From contig DYPD01000006.1 of NCBI GenBank assembly GCA_020720115.1, forward strand, positions 16,516-58,805: a stretch of DNA of 42,290 nucleotides, given 5' to 3'. Position numbers and translations under genes: made by a program. Source of the DNA: Thiomargarita sp. GTDB lineage: Bacteria; Pseudomonadota; Gammaproteobacteria; Beggiatoales; Beggiatoaceae. Of the stretch, positions 4,098-12,421 are shown one piece after another. How positions within the stretch are numbered: position 1 is the stretch's first letter; each line of letters starts with the position of its first letter. Under the pieces are notes generated by a model. It saw nothing but the letters and a program-made list of their open reading frames with translations, was not told where the DNA came from and ran no database searches.

Positions 4098-6404
4098 TTA
4101 AAGGTGCGGAAACACTAAAATCAGCAATACCGCAACGATAATCGCGGGATAAGTTAACATCCCAATGAAATCAATACGTTCTACCCAGATTTGATCCTGC
4201 TCATTACCGCTGGCTTTAAGCTGTCTGAAAACAGTAAAGAGCATATTAAAGATCGCCAGCATATAAACCATGTAAAACACATATTCAATCAGTATCAGAT
4301 AATCAATATCCGGCATACTGGATGCCATGCGAATATGGAATAAAGAAGTGGAAAGAATCATGTTGACGCTTAAGGTAATGCGCACCGCGAAACCTGCCCC
4401 CGCGACTGGAATATAAAACACAAAGTAACCCAGCATCACCACAAAAATCACCGGCAACAAATTCTTCAATACAAAACTCAGAAAATTACGCGATATTTCC
4501 AACTCTGCATTGAACTGTGAATACTCAATACGCTGCTCCGCGCCAAAGAGTTCTGGAAGCCCTAAAGTTGAATCAGTTTTACTGCTGCTTTGATAAAAAC
4601 TAATATGGTTAAGCCGCCAGCCACCCGCATTAAAAATGTTGTTGCGCTTGAATTTTTCTAGCAATCCTTGCAAAGTGGTATTAAAACCCAGAGTATCTAC
4701 CACATAAATCAGATGATCACGGGTCAAATCCTTATGCCGAAATTTGATCTGTAATTGTTGTTTATCCAGTGGATAATCAGCAAAATCAAAATTTACTTTG
4801 AATTGACTGTTTACCCGATAAGTGTGTGTGATAACGCCTGAGCCGCCTACCGAGGAAGCTTGTGCCAGCACGGGTTCCATAGCCAGCTTCAGAGGATCAG
4901 CGCTGTTAATAAATTCTAAGGCTTTGTCTTCATAATTTTTTAGATAACGGAACCAAAGATAGAAATCTGCTGAATAATGACCTTTTATAGCGTTGATTTC
5001 GCTGATTTCGTTAAAATCAATCCCAACATACACCACTTGAGCGCGACGCATGAATTTTTCATTCACGAAAATAATCTGGTTATTTACAGCTTCTTCTAAC
5101 AAGTTGGGGATATTATTCAAATCAGCTATGGATTGAAATTGCTCCTGTGCGGCAATCGCTTTACCATTTTTAAATACTGCAATTGGGATGTTTTTAACCG
5201 CATCACCATTGCGATCAAAATAAATAAAGCCACTCACACCTTCTACACCACTTTTTACATCTGATATATTCCATAAACCCTCTTGTAGTTGCTTGCGTTG
5301 TTTAGCCAGAGGGTCCTGTGTATTGATAGCAGTCAATGCTCTGGTGACAGTCAAAGCTGCATCATAGTACATAGTGCCTGCACTACTAGGTTCTTCGCCA
5401 TAAGCTTGGATAAAATTCTGGTAAAATCTTTGTGCCTGTTGTCCGGCGATGTCGGGTAAAAAGGGCATTGTAGCCAGTATGCCATTTGTATAATAGCCAG
5501 GTTTAGCTCGTTCTTGTGGTAATTCTGCTAGGCGCTTACGGAAGCTGGTGCTGGCAAGCGAATCGGCACCGACTACAGCCACGCGATTGCCTAAACTGCG
5601 TAAAGCGGTGATGATGGAAGCGGCTTGAGCCGAATGGGTAGCTACAAAGAGGACGCTATCTTCTTTAGCATCTCCATAATATTTCAATAATTTATCTATG
5701 GCATCATTGAAGCTGGCGTCATCATCTTGGACAAATTTCCAATGTTGTTTGACTTCTAAGCCGATGCTTTTGGCTGTGCGGTGAAAATTTTCTGCCAGCG
5801 AAGTGCCATACACTGTGTCGGTAGAAATCAGTGTGGCGCTGTTTTTGTTCAGCACTTTATAAATGTAATTTGCTAACAGCGCAGCCTGATCGCTGTTATT
5901 AAAGATCACGCGAAAATACCAGTCATTGCCCCGCGTAATGCTGTCTGTGGTGGCGCTACCTGTTACTGCTGCCAAACCTTGTTCTTGATAAATCGGCGCA
6001 GCCGCTGCTGAGGCGGTGCTGCTGTAGTGTCCGATGACGGCTAAAGCGGCGGTTTGTTTAGCGATGGTTTCTGCATTGGTTGCAGCTAAATCCGCTTTGT
6101 TTTGATCGTCATAGACCAGTAACTCGACTCTGTGCCCATGAATGCCACCTTTTTGATTGACTTCGTTGAGGTGCAAACGAATGGCTTGCACCATTGCTTG
6201 CCCGTCGCTGGCGGAACTACCGCTCATGGGACCTGAGACGGCAATGTAATAAGGCGCTGGTCTGCTAAACAGGTGCAATCCTAACAGGCTGGCAAGCACG
6301 CCTGCCAGGAGTAGCAAGGTCCATAGCCAGCGGTGTATTTTTTTCTGGCTAACAGTGTTGGTTATTTCTTCAGACTTGTTGCTGGGTGCTAAGGCTTCAC
6401 TCAT
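4098..6404 (-). CDS. Periplasmic-binding-domain / pentameric ligand-gated ion channel fusion protein
   Basis: The 768-residue protein has four parts. Residues 26-46 form a signal anchor. Residues about 51-430 form a LivK/ANF-type (Peripla_BP_6) domain, with SGPMSG at the start and a GHYSST ligand-site segment at 125-130. Residues about 455-640 resemble the extracellular beta-sandwich of pentameric ligand-gated channels: VGIDFNEISEINAIKGHYSADFYLW-type text, then FDFADYPLDKQQL with the Pro-loop YPLDKQ at 544-549. Four membrane helices follow: M1 about 643-665, M2 672-692 (RITLSVNMILSTSLFHI), M3 702-725 and M4 746-765, with the short M3-M4 loop typical of prokaryotic members. In this family, ligand binding outside opens an ion pore lined by M2. 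The binding domain may be an added sensor for amino-acid-like ligands (inference). The start codon overlaps the stop of the upstream lipoprotein gene (ATGA). Confidence 0.8.
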   Translation of the reverse strand: MSEALAPSNKSEEITNTVSQKKIHRWLWTLLLLAGVLASLLGLHLFSRPAPYYIAVSGPMSGSSASDGQAMVQAIRLHLNEVNQKGGIHGHRVELLVYDDQNKADLAATNAETIAKQTAALAVIGHYSSTASAAAAPIYQEQGLAAVTGSATTDSITRGNDWYFRVIFNNSDQAALLANYIYKVLNKNSATLISTDTVYGTSLAENFHRTAKSIGLEVKQHWKFVQDDDASFNDAIDKLLKYYGDAKEDSVLFVATHSAQAASIITALRSLGNRVAVVGADSLASTSFRKRLAELPQERAKPGYYTNGILATMPFLPDIAGQQAQRFYQNFIQAYGEEPSSAGTMYYDAALTVTRALTAINTQDPLAKQRKQLQEGLWNISDVKSGVEGVSGFIYFDRNGDAVKNIPIAVFKNGKAIAAQEQFQSIADLNNIPNLLEEAVNNQIIFVNEKFMRRAQVVYVGIDFNEISEINAIKGHYSADFYLWFRYLKNYEDKALEFINSADPLKLAMEPVLAQASSVGGSGVITHTYRVNSQFKVNFDFADYPLDKQQLQIKFRHKDLTRDHLIYVVDTLGFNTTLQGLLEKFKRNNIFNAGGWRLNHISFYQSSSKTDSTLGLPELFGAEQRIEYSQFNAELEISRNFLSFVLKNLLPVIFVVMLGYFVFYIPVAGAGFAVRITLSVNMILSTSLFHIRMASSMPDIDYLILIEYVFYMVYMLAIFNMLFTVFRQLKASGNEQDQIWVERIDFIGMLTYPAIIVAVLLILVFPHL

Positions 6405-8047
6405 TGTTCTAATGCCCAGTTGCGAATTTGTTGTCCGCCAAATGCCATGGCATACCAGTTTTTAATACGCGGTTTTACCAAATAAGTTGCGGAAGAAAAA
6501 TACAGTGGCAAAATCACAGTTTCGTCCTGATTTAAGATAATTTCTGCAAGTTGATATAATTGCTGGCGTTTTTGCTCATTAGATTCTTGCTGCGCTTGCT
6601 CGGTAATTTGCGCATAACGCTGGTTTTTCCAGCGCACAAAATTGGAGCCCTGCTCAGGATGAAAGCCATCGTATAAGAAATTATTGGCGTCGGGATAGTC
6701 TGCACACCAGCCCATGCGAAACAAGTGCACGTCTTTAGGGTCGTACAGGGTATCTGTATAGCGGTCAAAATCCAGTTCGCGTACTTGTAAATTGATATTG
6801 ACATAGTGGTTGAGCATGGTGCGCAAAGCGTTGGAAATGGCATGGTGGGTTTCTGAAACATTATGCACTAACACAATATTGGGCAGACCTTTGTCATCAG
6901 GATAACCAGCTTCCGCTAACCAGGCTTGCGCTTGCTGGGGATTGAAATGAATGCCAATTTCTTGACTGGGGTCTACTGAGCCAAAAATCGGTGGGCGGGT
7001 AAAGGTGGTGGCGGGTTCTTGTCCGCTGCGCAGCACAAAATCTAGTAAGAGTTCTTTGTTAATTGCTGCCACAATGGCTTTGCGCACTAAGGGGTTGTCA
7101 GTGGGCGGGAGCTTGGTATTAAAACCGTAAATTTCGGTGCAAAACAACGGGGCGCTATGCAGATCACGGCGTAATTTGGGATCAACCTGCAAACCGGACA
7201 TTTCGGTCTGCGGAATACGCAAATACGCCTCTCCTAGCACGTCAAGCTCACCGCTTTTGTACAGTGTCAAACCCAGCGAGCTTTCCTGCACAATGTAATA
7301 ATGCACTTCATTAATAGCCACTGAATCAGCCGCATAGTAATCAGGATTTTTTTTCAAAATCAAAACATTACCTTTATCCCATTGATGCAGACGATAAGAG
7401 CCGTTGGTTTGGATATGATCAGGACGAGTCCAGGTGTCGCCATACTGCTCAATGGCTTTATGTGGCAAGGGGCGATATACCCACAAACCGGCTAAAGCGG
7501 GGAAATAGCTGGCGGGATTTTTCAGGTAAAACTCTAGGGTGTAGGCATCCAGTGCCTTGACGCCAATTTGTTCGGCGTCTTTTAATTCACCCTTGTTATA
7601 GCTCTCTGCATTTTTCAATATATACAATAAATTAGCATAGGGTGATTTGGTTTCTGGGCGCAAATTGCGGCGAATTGCCCACACAATATCCTCTGCCGTA
7701 ACGGGTTCGCCGTTGCTCCACTGCACCTCTTTGCGTAAGAAAAAACGATAGGTTGCACCCTGGTCATGAACTTCCCAATGGGTTGCCAGTTCAGGCAAGA
7801 CTTTGTAGGTTTTAGGATCGAAATCTGTTAAGCCTAGAAACAATTGTTCGGCTAATTCTATCGCATCGGTGAATTGCGTTAGACCTGGATCGAGCGTGGA
7901 AATGGGACCATCCAGCGGCAAACGCAAATAAGGCGGTGGTGTGGCTTCGCTGGCAGCAGATACAACGGGCGGCGGTGGCGGCGCGGAACAACCAACGAGG
8001 CTGATAAACAATAGTGCACTACAGAGGCGCAATAAAACATGCAACAT
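6401..8047 (-). CDS. Peptide-type solute-binding lipoprotein (SBP_bac_5 / OppA-DppA family)
   Basis: From the ATG at 8047 the product is 548 residues and begins with a lipoprotein signal (MLHVLLRLCSALLFISLVGC, lipobox LVGC). It continues with family landmarks: LDPGLTQFTDAIELAEQLFLGL, the WSNGEPVTAEDIVWAIRR segment, NPDYYA, and FRMGWCADYPDANNFL near the C-terminus. Members bind oligopeptides or other solutes and normally deliver them to an Opp/Dpp permease; no such permease is present here. The frame can be extended to a GTG at 8119, but that adds 24 residues ahead of the signal peptide, so the internal ATG is preferred even though it lacks a strong ribosome site. The stop overlaps the channel gene start by 4 bp, suggesting translational coupling to a channel that has its own binding domain. 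Confidence 0.85.
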   Translation of the reverse strand: MLHVLLRLCSALLFISLVGCSAPPPPPVVSAASEATPPPYLRLPLDGPISTLDPGLTQFTDAIELAEQLFLGLTDFDPKTYKVLPELATHWEVHDQGATYRFFLRKEVQWSNGEPVTAEDIVWAIRRNLRPETKSPYANLLYILKNAESYNKGELKDAEQIGVKALDAYTLEFYLKNPASYFPALAGLWVYRPLPHKAIEQYGDTWTRPDHIQTNGSYRLHQWDKGNVLILKKNPDYYAADSVAINEVHYYIVQESSLGLTLYKSGELDVLGEAYLRIPQTEMSGLQVDPKLRRDLHSAPLFCTEIYGFNTKLPPTDNPLVRKAIVAAINKELLLDFVLRSGQEPATTFTRPPIFGSVDPSQEIGIHFNPQQAQAWLAEAGYPDDKGLPNIVLVHNVSETHHAISNALRTMLNHYVNINLQVRELDFDRYTDTLYDPKDVHLFRMGWCADYPDANNFLYDGFHPEQGSNFVRWKNQRYAQITEQAQQESNEQKRQQLYQLAEIILNQDETVILPLYFSSATYLVKPRIKNWYAMAFGGQQIRNWALEQ

Positions 8048-8211
8048 TGAGTTAGGAGTCTGTATCTCTGGGAGTTTTCGTTGAAATCTGCAATAGGATA
8101 AAAAAATTCTAAGCATCACATTCTATCCAAGTAAAGCCTGGTAACGCATGACGTAAAGGCAAAAAATTTAGCAGTTGCCAAGGAATTTAGAGCTGCCAAA
8201 TCTTTAATTCA

Positions 8212-8673
8212 TTAGGAAGTCGTTTTTTTCGCTGTGTCTTCGCTTGATTCTGGTGACGGTAGGCTGCTGCGTTTGGTGTCTTTGGGCTTCACATTTTGCT
8301 GCGGATGAGCAGGATCAACATGCACTAGGCTGCCATTGACCGCAGCGCCCATCGCCATTTCAATCAAGTTGTAATACACATTGCCATTTACCCGTGCATT
8401 CAAGGCTAATTCAATGTGTTCACTGACGTGAACATCACCTTCTACACGACCGTTTAAGATCACGTTCGGTACTCGGATTTCGCCTTCAATAGCGCCTTGC
8501 TCACTTAAAGTCAATACTGAGGAGGGTTCCTGCGAGGCAACTGCCACTATGTTGCCTTTGACTTTACCGTCAATGTGCAATCCACCGTTAAAATGAATGT
8601 CGCCACGAACCTCAGTTTCTTTTCCAATCAGAGAATCAATGCGGGTTACGCGCTTGCTTTTTTTTCCAAACAT
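8212..8673 (-). CDS. Bactofilin family polymer-forming cytoskeletal protein
   Basis: The 153-residue protein has the bactofilin (DUF583) pattern: a short basic start, then IDSLIGKETEVRGDIHFNGGLHIDGKVKGNI followed by repeated beta-helix turns such as EGEIRVPNVILNGRVEGDVHVSEHIEL and VNGNVYYNLIEMAMGAAVNGSL, ending in a polar Ser/Lys tail. Bactofilins polymerise into filaments without nucleotide and position cell-wall or envelope enzymes. A GGGAG ribosome site lies about 9 bp before the ATG. The gene follows the proline-rich protein gene after 17 bp on the same strand, so the two are probably one transcript. The family call is secure; the specific role is not known. Confidence 0.92.
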   Translation of the reverse strand: MFGKKSKRVTRIDSLIGKETEVRGDIHFNGGLHIDGKVKGNIVAVASQEPSSVLTLSEQGAIEGEIRVPNVILNGRVEGDVHVSEHIELALNARVNGNVYYNLIEMAMGAAVNGSLVHVDPAHPQQNVKPKDTKRSSLPSPESSEDTAKKTTS

Positions 8674-8690: not shown

Positions 8691-9389
8691 TTATTTTTTA
8701 ATCGGTACTAAACGATCACCAAAAGGGGTTTTAACAATACGCATACCAGGTGGCACTGCGTCCGGGTTGATTGTATTTGCCATCGCGCCCTGAAAGGCTT
8801 GTCTAGCCCGCTCTCGTGCTGCTTCGGCTTGGGCTTCGTCTACTGGCGGCGGCGGTGATTGCGGGCTGTTGGACATGACAGGTTGCACCAATTGCGCAAC
8901 CGGAGCAGCCTTAGGCGGTGTCGGCTTGCCTAGCACTAATCCCAGTGTAGCTGTCTTACCATCAGGACTACAGTCTACCCCTTTTTCCTGCCGATCTTCA
9001 CGACAAGGGGAAGCTTCTGGATAAGCCACAGTTAAGGTGCGCGGGGTGACGTGCAGTAAACGAAAGCCGTAGCCTAATTCCAGGCTGTCAGTCCCCGCTG
9101 TCCATTTGATTTTCGCCGTTTGATTTTCTGGTGTAGTGAGCAGTATATGAAACATAGCACCTAATTGCGAAGTACCCTGCAAACTAAAATCCTGTTGCGG
9201 CGGCGGTGGTGGCGGAATAGGCGGCGGTGGCGCGGGCGGCGGCGGAGTAGGCGGCGGTGGCGCGGGCGGTGGCTCAGGTTGCTTACCGCGATCTTGGTTG
9301 AATAAGTCAAACGCATAAGCGGTCGGTGCGAGGCTCAGAGCCGCACACACGCATAAACAGAGCATAAAAGCATGGATGAACAATTTCAC
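8691..9389 (-). CDS. Exported proline-rich protein of unknown function (possible PilP/GspC-like core)
   Basis: The 232-residue product starts at a GTG with TTGGAG about 7 bp upstream. A signal peptide (about 1-26, ending AYA) precedes a poly-proline stretch at 38-64 built from PPPPTPPPPAP-like units. A compact domain (about 67-125) begins DFSLQGTSQLGAMFHILL and contains SLELGYGFRLLHVTPRTLTVAY, which faintly recalls the beta-sheet domain of PilP/GspC. A second Pro-rich linker and a short C-terminal segment (TPFGDRLVPI) follow. Its position directly upstream of the bactofilin suggests an envelope role, perhaps spanning peptidoglycan. The PilP/GspC resemblance is weak and not used to name it. 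Confidence 0.75.
   Translation of the reverse strand: MKLFIHAFMLCLCVCAALSLAPTAYAFDLFNQDRGKQPEPPPAPPPPTPPPPAPPPPIPPPPPPQQDFSLQGTSQLGAMFHILLTTPENQTAKIKWTAGTDSLELGYGFRLLHVTPRTLTVAYPEASPCREDRQEKGVDCSPDGKTATLGLVLGKPTPPKAAPVAQLVQPVMSNSPQSPPPPVDEAQAEAARERARQAFQGAMANTINPDAVPPGMRIVKTPFGDRLVPIKK
9211..9270. repeat. Two 30-bp tandem repeat units inside the proline-rich gene
   Basis: Positions 9211-9240 and 9241-9270 are two tandem 30-bp units differing at two positions. They encode the central poly-proline run of the exported protein. Such in-frame repeats can change in copy number without breaking the gene. Confidence 0.85.
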
Positions 9390-9481: not shown

Positions 9482-12421
9482 TTATTTTAAGTAGCCGATA
9501 ACTGTTTTGACCAGTGCCCGCAGCACTTCGGGTAAATCTTCAGTGATGCCGTCAAACACTTCTTTTTGTAAAAACAAAATCATACCGTCGGTACGCGCCA
9601 CTGCATCTGCCATGCGCGGTGAGTCGTCAAATAAGCCGAGTTCGCCAAAGAAATCGTGTTCGCCGAGTTCACTTAAAAGCTTGTCACCGCGCTGGATACC
9701 CACGCGCCCAGTGGCGACAATGTACATGCCGTCTGGTGCGTCGCCCATCGAAAACAGCTTTTCATCTTTAATCATTTCCCGATCTTCACAGGTTTCGGCG
9801 ATGGTCAGCAAGACCTCTCCAGGCAAATCGGCAAATAATCTTACCCGTCTGAGCAACATGACTTTTTCTGTAATATCCACTGAACCTCCTTTGGGTTCTA
9901 GTAGGGGAGTATCCAGCAATCGATCTAGCCAACTATCTTTTAAGGTTCTTAATAGCTGCACCGTGTTCTTATCGTTGCTGATTTCAGGATTCTCTTCAAA
10001 TACCGCAATAGCGCGGCGCAATTCTTTGTCTTTCGTTTGGCTTTCGAGAAACTCCAGCGCGGTGGCGTGGCGCGAGGCGACCTCTTGCGAAGTATTTTCG
10101 TGTAGTAAAGTGGGAATCACGCCGCTCAACTCAACGGATTGAGTGGTGACATCAAACCAATACAGCAAACGCGCTTCTGCCATACGGCGGCGCTGGATGA
10201 CTTCTAAGCGCACCGATGGGCTTAAGCATTTGCTTTGGCTCGCGGCTTTTAACAGGCGTATTGTGTGTGCCTCGTCTAGTACGCATTGACGCGCTTGCTG
10301 CGCTAATGAATGACTGTTTGGCTGACGTTTAGAACGCATCGCGCAGGCTTTTGCCAAAAAAGTGCGGGTGATGACAGTACCATCGCGTGCGACTTCGGCA
10401 ATGGCTAAATCTGCTGTTGCGCCGCTAATCGCACTGAGAATACGCACCGCCGCCCGCGCCGCATTTTGTGAAGCGTTAGCGATTAACTCGCTGATATAGG
10501 GTACAACAGGTTCGCCGAGTTGGATCAGCGTGCGGCTGGCGTAGAGAGAAACCCGCCCTTTACCGAGCTTACTCAACAGCGCCGGAATCAAATGGATGTT
10601 TTTCTGATCGGCTATCGCCCACATAGCAGCGATGCTGACGGTTTCGTTTACATCGTGCAAGAGGGCATCTAATTCTGCTTCCAGATTGCCAGTGCGTAAC
10701 GCGCTGATGGCATAAGCAGCCCCGCGCCGCAAGTAAGGATCATTACTAGACACCATGATTTTCAAGGTGTTGGCTGCTGCAATCAGGTTATCCAAAGTGC
10801 CGTAGCGCATGAGCACCACGATAGCACCCGCCCGCGCCAGCGGTAACGGGCTGTCTAACCAACGCGACGCTAAAGGCGCAACCTGTTGCGGTGCCAACAC
10901 GCTGAGGGTTTTGAGTATCCACCAGAGCACCTTGCCATCTTCTTCCACTTCCAGACGTTGCAGTAGCAGGGGCACTACCTGTTGATCACGCAATTGATGA
11001 GCAGCGCGAACGAAGTCTACCCGCACATCAAAATAAGCCGAATTGAGATGGCTATAAGCCACCTGTGGCAAGCGTTCAAGCTGGGATTTTTCCAGTAAAG
11101 CAAAGCTAAAGCGCACCACATCCGTGTCTTTATCTTGGAACGCCATTTCTGTAATGTTCAAAATATTATTGCGGTTGCTCAAATCCGCACCGCTGGCAAA
11201 TTCTTCAGAATCCAACGAGGACAGGCTAAAGCGTTTGATTTTAATCGCTTCTTCCAAGGTATCCTGATAAGTGCCCGTTACCCGCTGCGCAACCCACAGC
11301 CACACGCCGCAAGACAACAGCATCAGCACAGCAATGGCGGGCAACCCCATAGAACCAGACAACAACCAGAGCAAAATGGCGCCTAAGCCCGCCCCCAAAT
11401 ACCCAGCCGCAGTGATTAAAAACTTGCCTTCACGACGGATTTGCGCCGGTAGCGGCTTCATGGCGATTTCTCGTCCAACCGAGAAAAAGCTAAAGCGAAA
11501 AACATTTTCGCCCAGACGAATCAGCGCCGCTGTCCACAGCCCAGGCAAGAGCATCAGCCCCACGCTGGAAATGCCGCAAAACCAAGGAATGACCGACAGC
11601 AAACCTGCCACTCCAACCAGTTTGAGCAAGGTCTGAGTGCCGGCCACTTGGAATATCAACATTAACACATTCGACAAACCATAAAAGGGACCCATAAAAG
11701 AACCAATCGCCGCCGCGCCTTGGTAGGTTTTGCTGAGTTCCGATTTGAGCGCGTAATCAGCAAAAGTATCCACAATCATGAGCAAAAAAGTGCAGAGCGC
11801 AATATAACGAAACAGCGGGTAATTAAAGGGCGATTGTCCCTTGGCGCTACGCTTGGCAGGCACGGGCACTGGGCGCAAGAAAAAAAAGCACACTGACGCC
11901 AGGCAAACCATCAACGCCAGTAAATATAAAGGCGCTTGGCTATTGGTGTTGGCAATGATCAGCGGAATTGCCAAGCCAGTGAGCAGTCCGCCTAAATTGC
12001 CGGCGACGTTAATCCACACCATCAGGCGCTTAAAACGTCGCACATCAAAGGCATCTGCAATCGCATTCAAAGAGACCACAATCAAAATCACCGGAATCGC
12101 AGATAGCCATAGGCTAAACACGAACGGGAACCAACTCCAACCCACTTGCAGTATCTCGTGCCCAAACAAAACGCTGATACCCGCAAATAGAAAAATACCC
12201 GCATTAATAGTGGCAGAACCCCGCGAAGCCAGCGGCGTGATAGACAAGGTAATGAAAAGGATCACCACTGTTTGCGCCAGAAAAAAATGCGGTAGCAGAT
12301 GGGCAGGGTAATTAGACAGCAGCAGGACATCAATATAGGTGCGGCTGATGGTAATACCCGCCCAAGCCGCAATATTCAGCAAAACAGCAAGCAGAAAGGG
12401 AGAAGCAGACGCGGTTTGCAT
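9482..12421 (-). CDS. Nucleotide-transporter/MFS-like membrane protein with HEAT repeats and C-terminal cyclic-nucleotide-binding domain
   Basis: The 979-residue protein has three parts. Residues 1 to about 390 form some 11-12 membrane helices with an NTT/MFS-like pattern (AWAGITISRTYIDVLLL; then IADAFDVRRFKRLMVWINVAGNLGGLLTG). Residues about 420-720 form alpha-helical HEAT-like repeats (for example LRRGAAYAISALRTGNLEAELDALLHDVNETV and SIAAMWAIADQ). Residues about 856-979 form a CAP-type cNMP-binding domain with the phosphate-binding cassette around FFGELGLFDDSPRMADA (G926, E927, R936). Family knowledge suggests a membrane carrier or sensor gated by a cytoplasmic nucleotide-binding tail; the ligand is unknown. 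A CpdA-like cAMP phosphodiesterase gene lies about 4 kb away. The AGGAGG-like sequence is 15 bp from the ATG, unusually far, so the start is slightly uncertain. Confidence 0.8.
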   Translation of the reverse strand: MQTASASPFLLAVLLNIAAWAGITISRTYIDVLLLSNYPAHLLPHFFLAQTVVILFITLSITPLASRGSATINAGIFLFAGISVLFGHEILQVGWSWFPFVFSLWLSAIPVILIVVSLNAIADAFDVRRFKRLMVWINVAGNLGGLLTGLAIPLIIANTNSQAPLYLLALMVCLASVCFFFLRPVPVPAKRSAKGQSPFNYPLFRYIALCTFLLMIVDTFADYALKSELSKTYQGAAAIGSFMGPFYGLSNVLMLIFQVAGTQTLLKLVGVAGLLSVIPWFCGISSVGLMLLPGLWTAALIRLGENVFRFSFFSVGREIAMKPLPAQIRREGKFLITAAGYLGAGLGAILLWLLSGSMGLPAIAVLMLLSCGVWLWVAQRVTGTYQDTLEEAIKIKRFSLSSLDSEEFASGADLSNRNNILNITEMAFQDKDTDVVRFSFALLEKSQLERLPQVAYSHLNSAYFDVRVDFVRAAHQLRDQQVVPLLLQRLEVEEDGKVLWWILKTLSVLAPQQVAPLASRWLDSPLPLARAGAIVVLMRYGTLDNLIAAANTLKIMVSSNDPYLRRGAAYAISALRTGNLEAELDALLHDVNETVSIAAMWAIADQKNIHLIPALLSKLGKGRVSLYASRTLIQLGEPVVPYISELIANASQNAARAAVRILSAISGATADLAIAEVARDGTVITRTFLAKACAMRSKRQPNSHSLAQQARQCVLDEAHTIRLLKAASQSKCLSPSVRLEVIQRRRMAEARLLYWFDVTTQSVELSGVIPTLLHENTSQEVASRHATALEFLESQTKDKELRRAIAVFEENPEISNDKNTVQLLRTLKDSWLDRLLDTPLLEPKGGSVDITEKVMLLRRVRLFADLPGEVLLTIAETCEDREMIKDEKLFSMGDAPDGMYIVATGRVGIQRGDKLLSELGEHDFFGELGLFDDSPRMADAVARTDGMILFLQKEVFDGITEDLPEVLRALVKTVIGYLK

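Follow-up and report, generated by a model that had tools for sequence, protein, structure and literature searches.

The locus and its fusion gene

This study concerns a gene in a 42,290-nucleotide stretch of DNA from Thiomargarita sp. (assembly GCA_020720115.1, contig DYPD01000006.1, positions 16,516 to 58,805), the whole of which is referred to as the window. A single open reading frame (ORF) joins a type I periplasmic binding protein (PBP-I) of the LivK/LivJ kind to a subunit of a pentameric ligand-gated ion channel (pLGIC), and is preceded by an overlapping gene for an OppA-like solute-binding protein (Table 1). The fusion had been noticed in an original prediction made from the sequence, and this observation was confirmed with exact coordinates and a length of 768 residues; three features had gone unmentioned, namely the location on the minus strand, the helix that anchors the N-terminus and the OppA-like gene overlapping the start.

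The N-terminal half is a two-lobed clamshell of the LivK/LivJ type. Pfam assigned residues 52-412 to Peripla_BP_6 (E 3.5e-43, 149 bits, cut-off 31.7) and also returned ANF_receptor (E 1e-19). LivJ 4gnr was matched among PDB sequences (E 1e-24) and was the best Foldseek match of an AlphaFold2 (AF2) model (TM-score 0.91 on the target); the solved structures nearest to the protein, in sequence and fold alike, are LivJ/LivK proteins, which bears out the LivK-like binding domain that had been proposed. Alignment of the pocket to 4gnr places S129, T152 and D281 opposite S, T and D, at positions which in LIVBP bind the alpha-carboxyl and alpha-amino groups; H257 lies opposite a Tyr.

The C-terminal half displays the features of a pLGIC: a sandwich carrying the Pro-loop FADYPLDKQ at residues 541-549, which contains the YPLDKQ motif read earlier, the residues D547 and R639, and a four-helix pore whose M2 aligns with that of GLIC without a gap. 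GLIC aligned over residues 518-765, M1-M4 included, with E about 1e-8 (7e-9 with the channel half alone; PDB sequences). When compared by hhalign with a profile of 15 plain pLGICs, i.e., channels without a clamshell, the channel part of 78 family members gave a probability of 100 (E 3e-40) and the family sandwich one of 99.4 (E 2e-21). The AF2 model of the window protein (mean predicted local distance difference test, pLDDT, 81; predicted TM-score, pTM, 0.75) comprises an anchor helix (20-46), the clamshell, ten strands (444-639) and four helices, in agreement with the earlier description of a complete channel with a short M3-M4 loop.

The domain models gave a divided result. Neur_chan_memb matched residues 649-720 with E 8e-5 and 23.4 bits, under its cut-off of 28.1, and Neur_chan_LBD reached E 0.015 at best, with a 709-residue portion of the window gene; in NCBIfam, LIC matched residues 521-723 (E 8e-14) and LGIC_1 gave 6e-9, both under their curated cut-offs. 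The original prediction had looked to Pfam for both halves: Peripla_BP_6 and ANF_receptor are significant, whereas Neur_chan_LBD is weak and Neur_chan_memb stays under its cut-off. Despite this, the comparisons with GLIC and by hhalign uphold the channel half, so that the first refuting condition of the original prediction did not apply. Its interpretation is supported in part, both halves being as claimed and both significantly matched.

The N-terminal hydrophobic helix is probably an uncleaved, N-in membrane anchor. In the LivK-channel relative L045:1831-4704 (the same gene as in L018 and L068), a DUF697 domain precedes this helix, which points to a cytoplasmic N-terminus.

Table 1. Features of the channel gene and its upstream partner, in window coordinates
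Feature	Position	Strand	Basis
pLGIC subunit with N-terminal LivK-type PBP-I, 768 aa	4098..6404	-	sequence and domain matches
N-terminal hydrophobic helix, residues 27-45	6270..6326	-	hydropathy; AF2 model gives helix 20-46
PBP-I (LivK/LivJ) clamshell, residues 52-412	5169..6251	-	Pfam, Foldseek, pocket alignment
Pro-loop (pLGIC) beta-sandwich, residues 441-640	4485..5084	-	AF2 model, hhalign, GLIC alignment
Pro-loop FADYPLDKQ, residues 541-549 (P545, D547)	4758..4784	-	sequence, family alignment
R639, basic residue immediately N-terminal of M1	4488..4490	-	family alignment
M1 helix, residues 641-664	4413..4484	-	AF2 model
M2 helix, residues 672-696	4317..4391	-	AF2 model, GLIC alignment
M3 helix, residues 703-730	4215..4298	-	AF2 model
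M4 helix, residues 735-765	4110..4202	-	AF2 model
OppA-like solute-binding protein (SBP_bac_5, E 1e-77), directly upstream of channel gene	6401..8119	-	Pfam
4-base overlap, end of OppA-like gene with channel ATG	6401..6404	-	coordinates

Relatives and their architectures

A scan of genome contigs found 162 relatives, the best 80 of which were kept. Hosts among these 80 include giant and filamentous sulfur bacteria (Parabeggiatoa, Thiomargarita, Thioploca, Halobeggiatoa), Desulfobacterota (including Desulfonema magnum), SAR324, a Leptospiraceae bacterium and the cyanobacteria Moorena, Okeania, Symploca, Spirulina and Xenococcus. Relatives with the order PBP-I, sandwich and pLGIC pore were found within the same phylum; some part of the window protein was matched in 44 of 57 related genomes, often by the clamshell alone, and the channel half in 44 of 398 genomes sampled from the phylum, while genome G033 has 14 matches covering clamshell and sandwich. 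An orthologue about 70% identical lies on contig JADGEH010000047.1 of Thiotrichales bacterium BB31 (locus L050). Between the window channel and the same-genus orthologue (69% identical), pS was 0.78 and pN 0.19, and dN/dS is not computable because synonymous changes are saturated. Gene transfer between filamentous gliding bacteria has been proposed earlier, in an account whose relevant sections do not mention ion channels (PMC6390638).

In 129 loci, every ORF with matches to clamshell and sandwich alike was assigned to a class. From 141 such ORFs, 114 fusions remained after three with a short sandwich had been dropped and the remainder deduplicated, a step in which two incomplete copies of the gene studied here were also removed. 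They comprise 73 with a pLGIC pore, 8 with a pLGIC pore followed by a C-terminal SBP_bac_1 domain, 27 with an MscS pore and 6 others, counts that do not represent frequencies in nature because pLGIC-type queries had been used to collect the loci. The SBP_bac_1 domain behind M4 (E 1e-34 in L032; Pfam) gives one channel subunit with two binding proteins, as in L032:7959-11552, L033:1807-5367 and L081:5782-9549. Four of the six other fusions run off their contig, and L117:3799-5979 has a C-terminal part unmatched by the pore queries; the last, L118:5843-9154 of Candidatus Parabeggiatoa HSG14, carries the sensor head on an AAA/NACHT-like ATPase (AAA_22 E 3e-4, under cut-off). In the relatives L022 and L113 the channel gene is broken into two ORFs.

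The same head on an MscS pore

The MscS forms carry the head of the window protein on a pore of an unrelated family. In L126 of Desulfonema magnum, Pfam assigned MS_channel_2nd (E 4e-19) and cNMP_binding (E 7e-21), and a cNMP match occurs in 19 of the 27 MscS forms. Examples of the order LivK, Pro-loop sandwich and MscS are L126:5998-9444, L128:5989-9435 and L036:864-4253, and the forms span three phyla, represented by Pseudomonadota, Thermodesulfobacteriota and a Leptospiraceae bacterium. Of twelve extra regions picked for odd-looking matches, ten have the MscS form (one of them being the gene already known as L183) and two have neither pore.

The kinship of the two kinds of sandwich was apparent from hhalign, in which MscS-type and window-type sandwiches aligned with E 1e-70 and, independently, MscS-type sandwiches aligned to the 15 plain pLGICs with a probability of 98.4 (E 6e-15). 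Against the same plain pLGICs, three column-shuffled controls, MscS-type clamshells and MscS pores all gave probabilities of at most 0.4, and MscS pores gave 2.4 against the window-type channel part. When the PDB was searched with an HMM profile of 19 MscS-type sandwiches, no match was found at E up to 10; AF2 modelling of the MscS-type L126 gave a poor result (pLDDT 63.5, pTM 0.38) and was not used as evidence; its best 50 Foldseek rows all bear a clamshell and are uninformative on the remainder. We therefore infer the fold of the MscS-type sandwich from sequence.

In a rapid maximum-likelihood tree built from 100 rows that cover clamshell and sandwich, a single branch with support of 100 holds 21 MscS forms, with the ATPase form L118 nested among them, and three MscS forms from the genus of the window itself (G001) stand apart on a long branch of their own. 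On this tree the pore labels require 7 changes versus 30 in shuffles; since the root is a midpoint root, the tree gives no direction of pore change.

It appears rather likely that the LivK clamshell and the Pro-loop sandwich constitute a self-contained receptor head mounted on two unrelated pores, pLGIC and MscS. On this reading the MscS forms would be MscS channels that open in response to a ligand, and one kind of head would have to drive assemblies of differing symmetry, a pentamer in the pLGIC forms and a heptamer in MscS. No description of a pLGIC sandwich fused to MscS was recognised in the literature searched, as judged on titles and abstract openings of mostly open-access papers.

Coupling and pocket residues in the two pore classes

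Two residues of the sandwich follow the pore type. With a pLGIC pore, P545 and R639 were each kept in 72 of 73 rows of a first sample and D or E at position 547 in 67 of 73; P545, an acid at 547 and R639 were all kept in the 8 forms that also bear SBP_bac_1, and P, D and R in all 12 pLGIC-pore rows of a second sample. With an MscS pore, D or E at 547 was present in 6 of 27 rows of the first sample, with R639 in one row and K in 6 more; in the second sample D was found in 0/9, R in 1/9 and K in 3/9, so that R or K at 639 persists in 7/27 and 4/9 of the MscS rows, respectively. The acid and the arginine, which pLGIC-pore forms retain and most MscS forms lack, therefore follow pore type, and their loss was replicated in the second sample. 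The Pro-loop proline was a third candidate and was rejected: it was absent from all 27 MscS rows at first, but present in 7 of 9 in the second sample. The acid of the Pro-loop and the basic residue before the membrane have been described as universal features that might serve gating (Tasneem et al., PMC549065).

Pocket residues were counted in 106 clamshells, 8 shorter ones being left out. S129 is kept in 68/69 pLGIC-pore rows and in all SBP_bac_1-bearing (8/8) and MscS (25/25) rows. In the pLGIC-pore rows T152 is kept in 60/69 and position 281 is acidic in 62/69 (D 57, E 5); D at 281 is found in 5/8 SBP_bac_1-bearing rows and in 8/25 MscS rows, and its rarity in the latter suggests different ligands there. 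On the basis of homology and these pocket residues, the window channel may be amino-acid-gated, as the original prediction had labelled it.

The OppA-like partner and neighbouring genes

The protein encoded upstream contains the lipobox-like motif LVGC. Such a neighbour recurs: when same-strand genes within 600 nt upstream were considered and loci with less than 1300 bases upstream were left out, an OppA-like gene preceded the channel gene in 37 of 56 pLGIC-pore loci, which are related and not independent. By group, this amounted to 23/28 in Pseudomonadota, 12/16 in Thermodesulfobacteriota, 2/2 in those recorded as Myxococcota, 0/9 in cyanobacteria and 0/1 in SAR324. The corresponding figures were 0/10 for MscS loci, 0/5 for loci with a fused SBP_bac_1 and 5/6 for the other forms, the miss being L118. 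Outside cyanobacteria, the pLGIC form thus usually has a second binding protein, either adjoining or fused behind M4. The partner is a LivK+OppA fusion in all four Desulfobacterota partners checked with Pfam, and OppA alone in the Thiotrichaceae locus L063; L117 counts among the misses, with an OppA-like gene that precedes the first of two channel genes.

Tandem LivK-channel-type genes, mostly behind a long OppA-like gene, occur in eleven Desulfobacterota loci (L088, L091, L092, L095, L096, L101, L106, L107, L116, L117, L121) and could give rise to heteromeric channels. The genome of the window has five SBP_bac_5 matches, apparently in four genes. Further upstream on the minus strand lie a Bactofilin gene (8212-8673), a gene for a proline-rich protein without Pfam match (8691-9389), both with homologues near the orthologue in L050, and a gene for a 979-residue protein that matches cNMP-binding and HEAT models and, weakly, MFS (9482-12421). 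Repeats in the window are limited to short families of two copies; six promoter-like sites were found, below the shuffled mean of 8.8, and seven terminator-like sites versus 5.0 in shuffles (sd 2.3), which is within one sd.

Proposed function and alternatives

The explanation that we favour, and regard as probable though well short of certain, is that five copies of the encoded protein form a ligand-gated channel in the inner membrane, gated via the clamshell or the OppA-like partner. The domains and their order, the conservation of the coupling residues and the recurrence of the OppA-like neighbour are established by the analysis, whereas the pentamer, ligand, docking, conductance, selectivity and physiological role are inferred. 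In each subunit an N-terminal anchor helix would be followed by the LivK-type clamshell, stacked over the Pro-loop sandwich and the four-helix pore. Either an amino acid would close the clamshell, or a ligand-loaded OppA-like lipoprotein would dock onto it; the movement would travel through the sandwich and be relayed by the Pro-loop acid D547 and the pre-M1 arginine R639 to the M2 pore, which would open. The ion flux would carry the signal as a change in membrane potential, the probable purpose being taxis or the adjustment of transport, and the protein would likely serve as a binding-protein-gated channel that converts the presence of amino acids or peptides into a flow of ions.

The ion conducted can be considered from the M2 helix, where, in prime numbering, A673 (-2'), V674 (-1'), R675 (0') and L684 (9') line up with GLIC, the acid of GLIC standing opposite A673; no acidic residue is present at -5' to 2' of the window M2. 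All known cation-selective pLGICs are described as having acidic rings at their cytoplasmic mouth (PMC9897478). The lack of such a ring at -2'/-1' makes anion-permeable or unselective conduction likelier than cation selectivity, and the window pore is perhaps of that kind. Cation selectivity via an acidic ring was discarded as a candidate, the ring being absent from the window protein and variable across the family; selectivity cannot be generalised to the family because the charge of M2 varies.

Several observations weigh against the favoured explanation. The Pfam and NCBIfam channel models all stay under their cut-offs, the pore blocks of the AF2 model are modest (pLDDT about 54-76; the Pro-loop tip, residues 543-546, is below 50), and the best 50 Foldseek rows all bear a clamshell and leave sandwich and pore without confirmation by fold search. 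Moreover, H257 occupies the position of the LivJ Tyr, and D or E occurs within -5' to 2' of M2 in 49 of 78 family members. Finally, 19 of the 56 pLGIC-pore loci, among them all nine from cyanobacteria, are without an OppA-like gene within 600 nt upstream, and the partner is therefore not essential to the family.

The amino-terminal domain of glutamate receptors is an assembly or modulatory domain, and the clamshell could be one likewise, the agonist binding between subunits in the sandwich as in animal receptors. We consider this unlikely, yet the most serious of the alternatives. It is favoured by the sandwich, which retains the pLGIC form in hhalign, and by the retention of the clamshell on MscS-pore relatives in spite of the scarcity of D at 281; the N-terminal domain (NTD) of DeCLIC, according to the accounts cited, seems to speed gating and not to open the channel (PMC12664993/PMC9897478). 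However, the near invariance of S129 and the acid at 281 in most pLGIC-pore rows are not obviously needed structurally.

Markedly less probable is that the protein serves mainly to let the OppA-like lipoprotein dock, controlling uptake or transport with scant or no conduction. The recurrence of the OppA-like neighbour would agree with such a role, as would an ABC-2 permease gene that begins 2 bases downstream of the channel gene, but no homologue of the latter was found in the loci of the best 80 of the 162 relatives, no oligopeptide permease was found among the 18 window proteins run against Pfam (the window has 58 ORFs), and the pLGIC coupling residues are strictly conserved. A merger of two genes by assembly or sequencing error, conceivable in a draft genome (3.86 Mb, 185 contigs), can be dismissed: counting the gene of the window, 81 deduplicated ORFs hold clamshell, sandwich and pLGIC pore in a single frame. 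They come from several phyla, and some belong to Desulfonema magnum, whose genome is complete.

Comparison with known systems

The fusion has been known in kind since 2005, and the earlier question of whether this combination is described is answered in the affirmative: Tasneem et al. report, in the portions cited here, an amino-terminal PBP-I fused to ART-LGICs of Magnetospirillum magnetotacticum and Bradyrhizobium japonicum, liken it to NMDA and metabotropic glutamate receptors, note stand-alone PBP-II genes adjoining some ART-LGIC genes, and predict chemoreceptors, cation- as well as anion-selective (PMC549065). The window gene is a further member of this class, with PBP-I before sandwich and four transmembrane helices, a binding-protein gene nearby and the same proposed chemoreceptor role. 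The cited portions of that account do not mention an operon of a PBP-I fusion with an OppA partner, a C-terminal solute-binding protein or a LivK+OppA fusion partner, and the terms MscS and mechanosensitive have no occurrence in its main text. New in the data analysed are the overlapping OppA-like partner, SBP_bac_1 behind M4 and the head on MscS. The last of these, invisible from the window alone, is the part worth following.

For neurotransmitter receptors, a central question is how binding in an outer domain leads the pore to open. If true, one head on two unrelated pores, with differing coupling residues, would offer a natural series for comparing coupling and for making chimeras, and the MscS family would gain ligand-gated members. 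Such a series also suggests that the sensing of amino acids or peptides in filamentous sulfur bacteria, and in other bacteria that glide, may run through ion channels.

Bacterial cyclic-nucleotide-gated (bCNG) channels of the MscS family share the MscS beta-domain and cNMP domain with the MscS-pore relatives; LivK clamshell and Pro-loop sandwich are unmentioned in the brief descriptions of them that were consulted. Plain prokaryotic pLGICs such as GLIC, the proton-gated channel of Gloeobacter, share the sandwich, Pro-loop, M1-M4 and gapless M2 with the window protein; they are without clamshell or anchor helix, and GLIC has its acid opposite A673. In the relevant sections of Jaiteh et al. 2016, terminal domains were discarded and such associations are given as known at the genome level alone (PMC4795631). 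DeCLIC, which the cited parts of two papers call the sole pLGIC with an NTD partially characterised or solved, likewise bears a large N-terminal periplasmic domain; unlike the clamshell of the LivK type described here, its NTD lobes are homologous to regulatory regions (e.g., calcium-binding domains), and the channel is activated by calcium depletion (PMC12664993, PMC9897478).

Animal NMDA/AMPA and metabotropic glutamate receptors (mGluRs) resemble the window protein in their extramembrane PBP-I domain, and mGluR7 gave a weak sequence match to the window clamshell (E 9e-4), with several mGluRs among the fold matches of Foldseek. In ionotropic glutamate receptors (iGluRs) a K+-channel-like pore is inserted into a PBP-II ligand domain, and mGluRs have a seven-helix domain, whereas the pore half of the window protein is that of a pLGIC. 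The contrast drawn in the original prediction thus holds: a LIVBP-like domain is common to the animal receptors and the window protein, and their pores belong to unrelated families.

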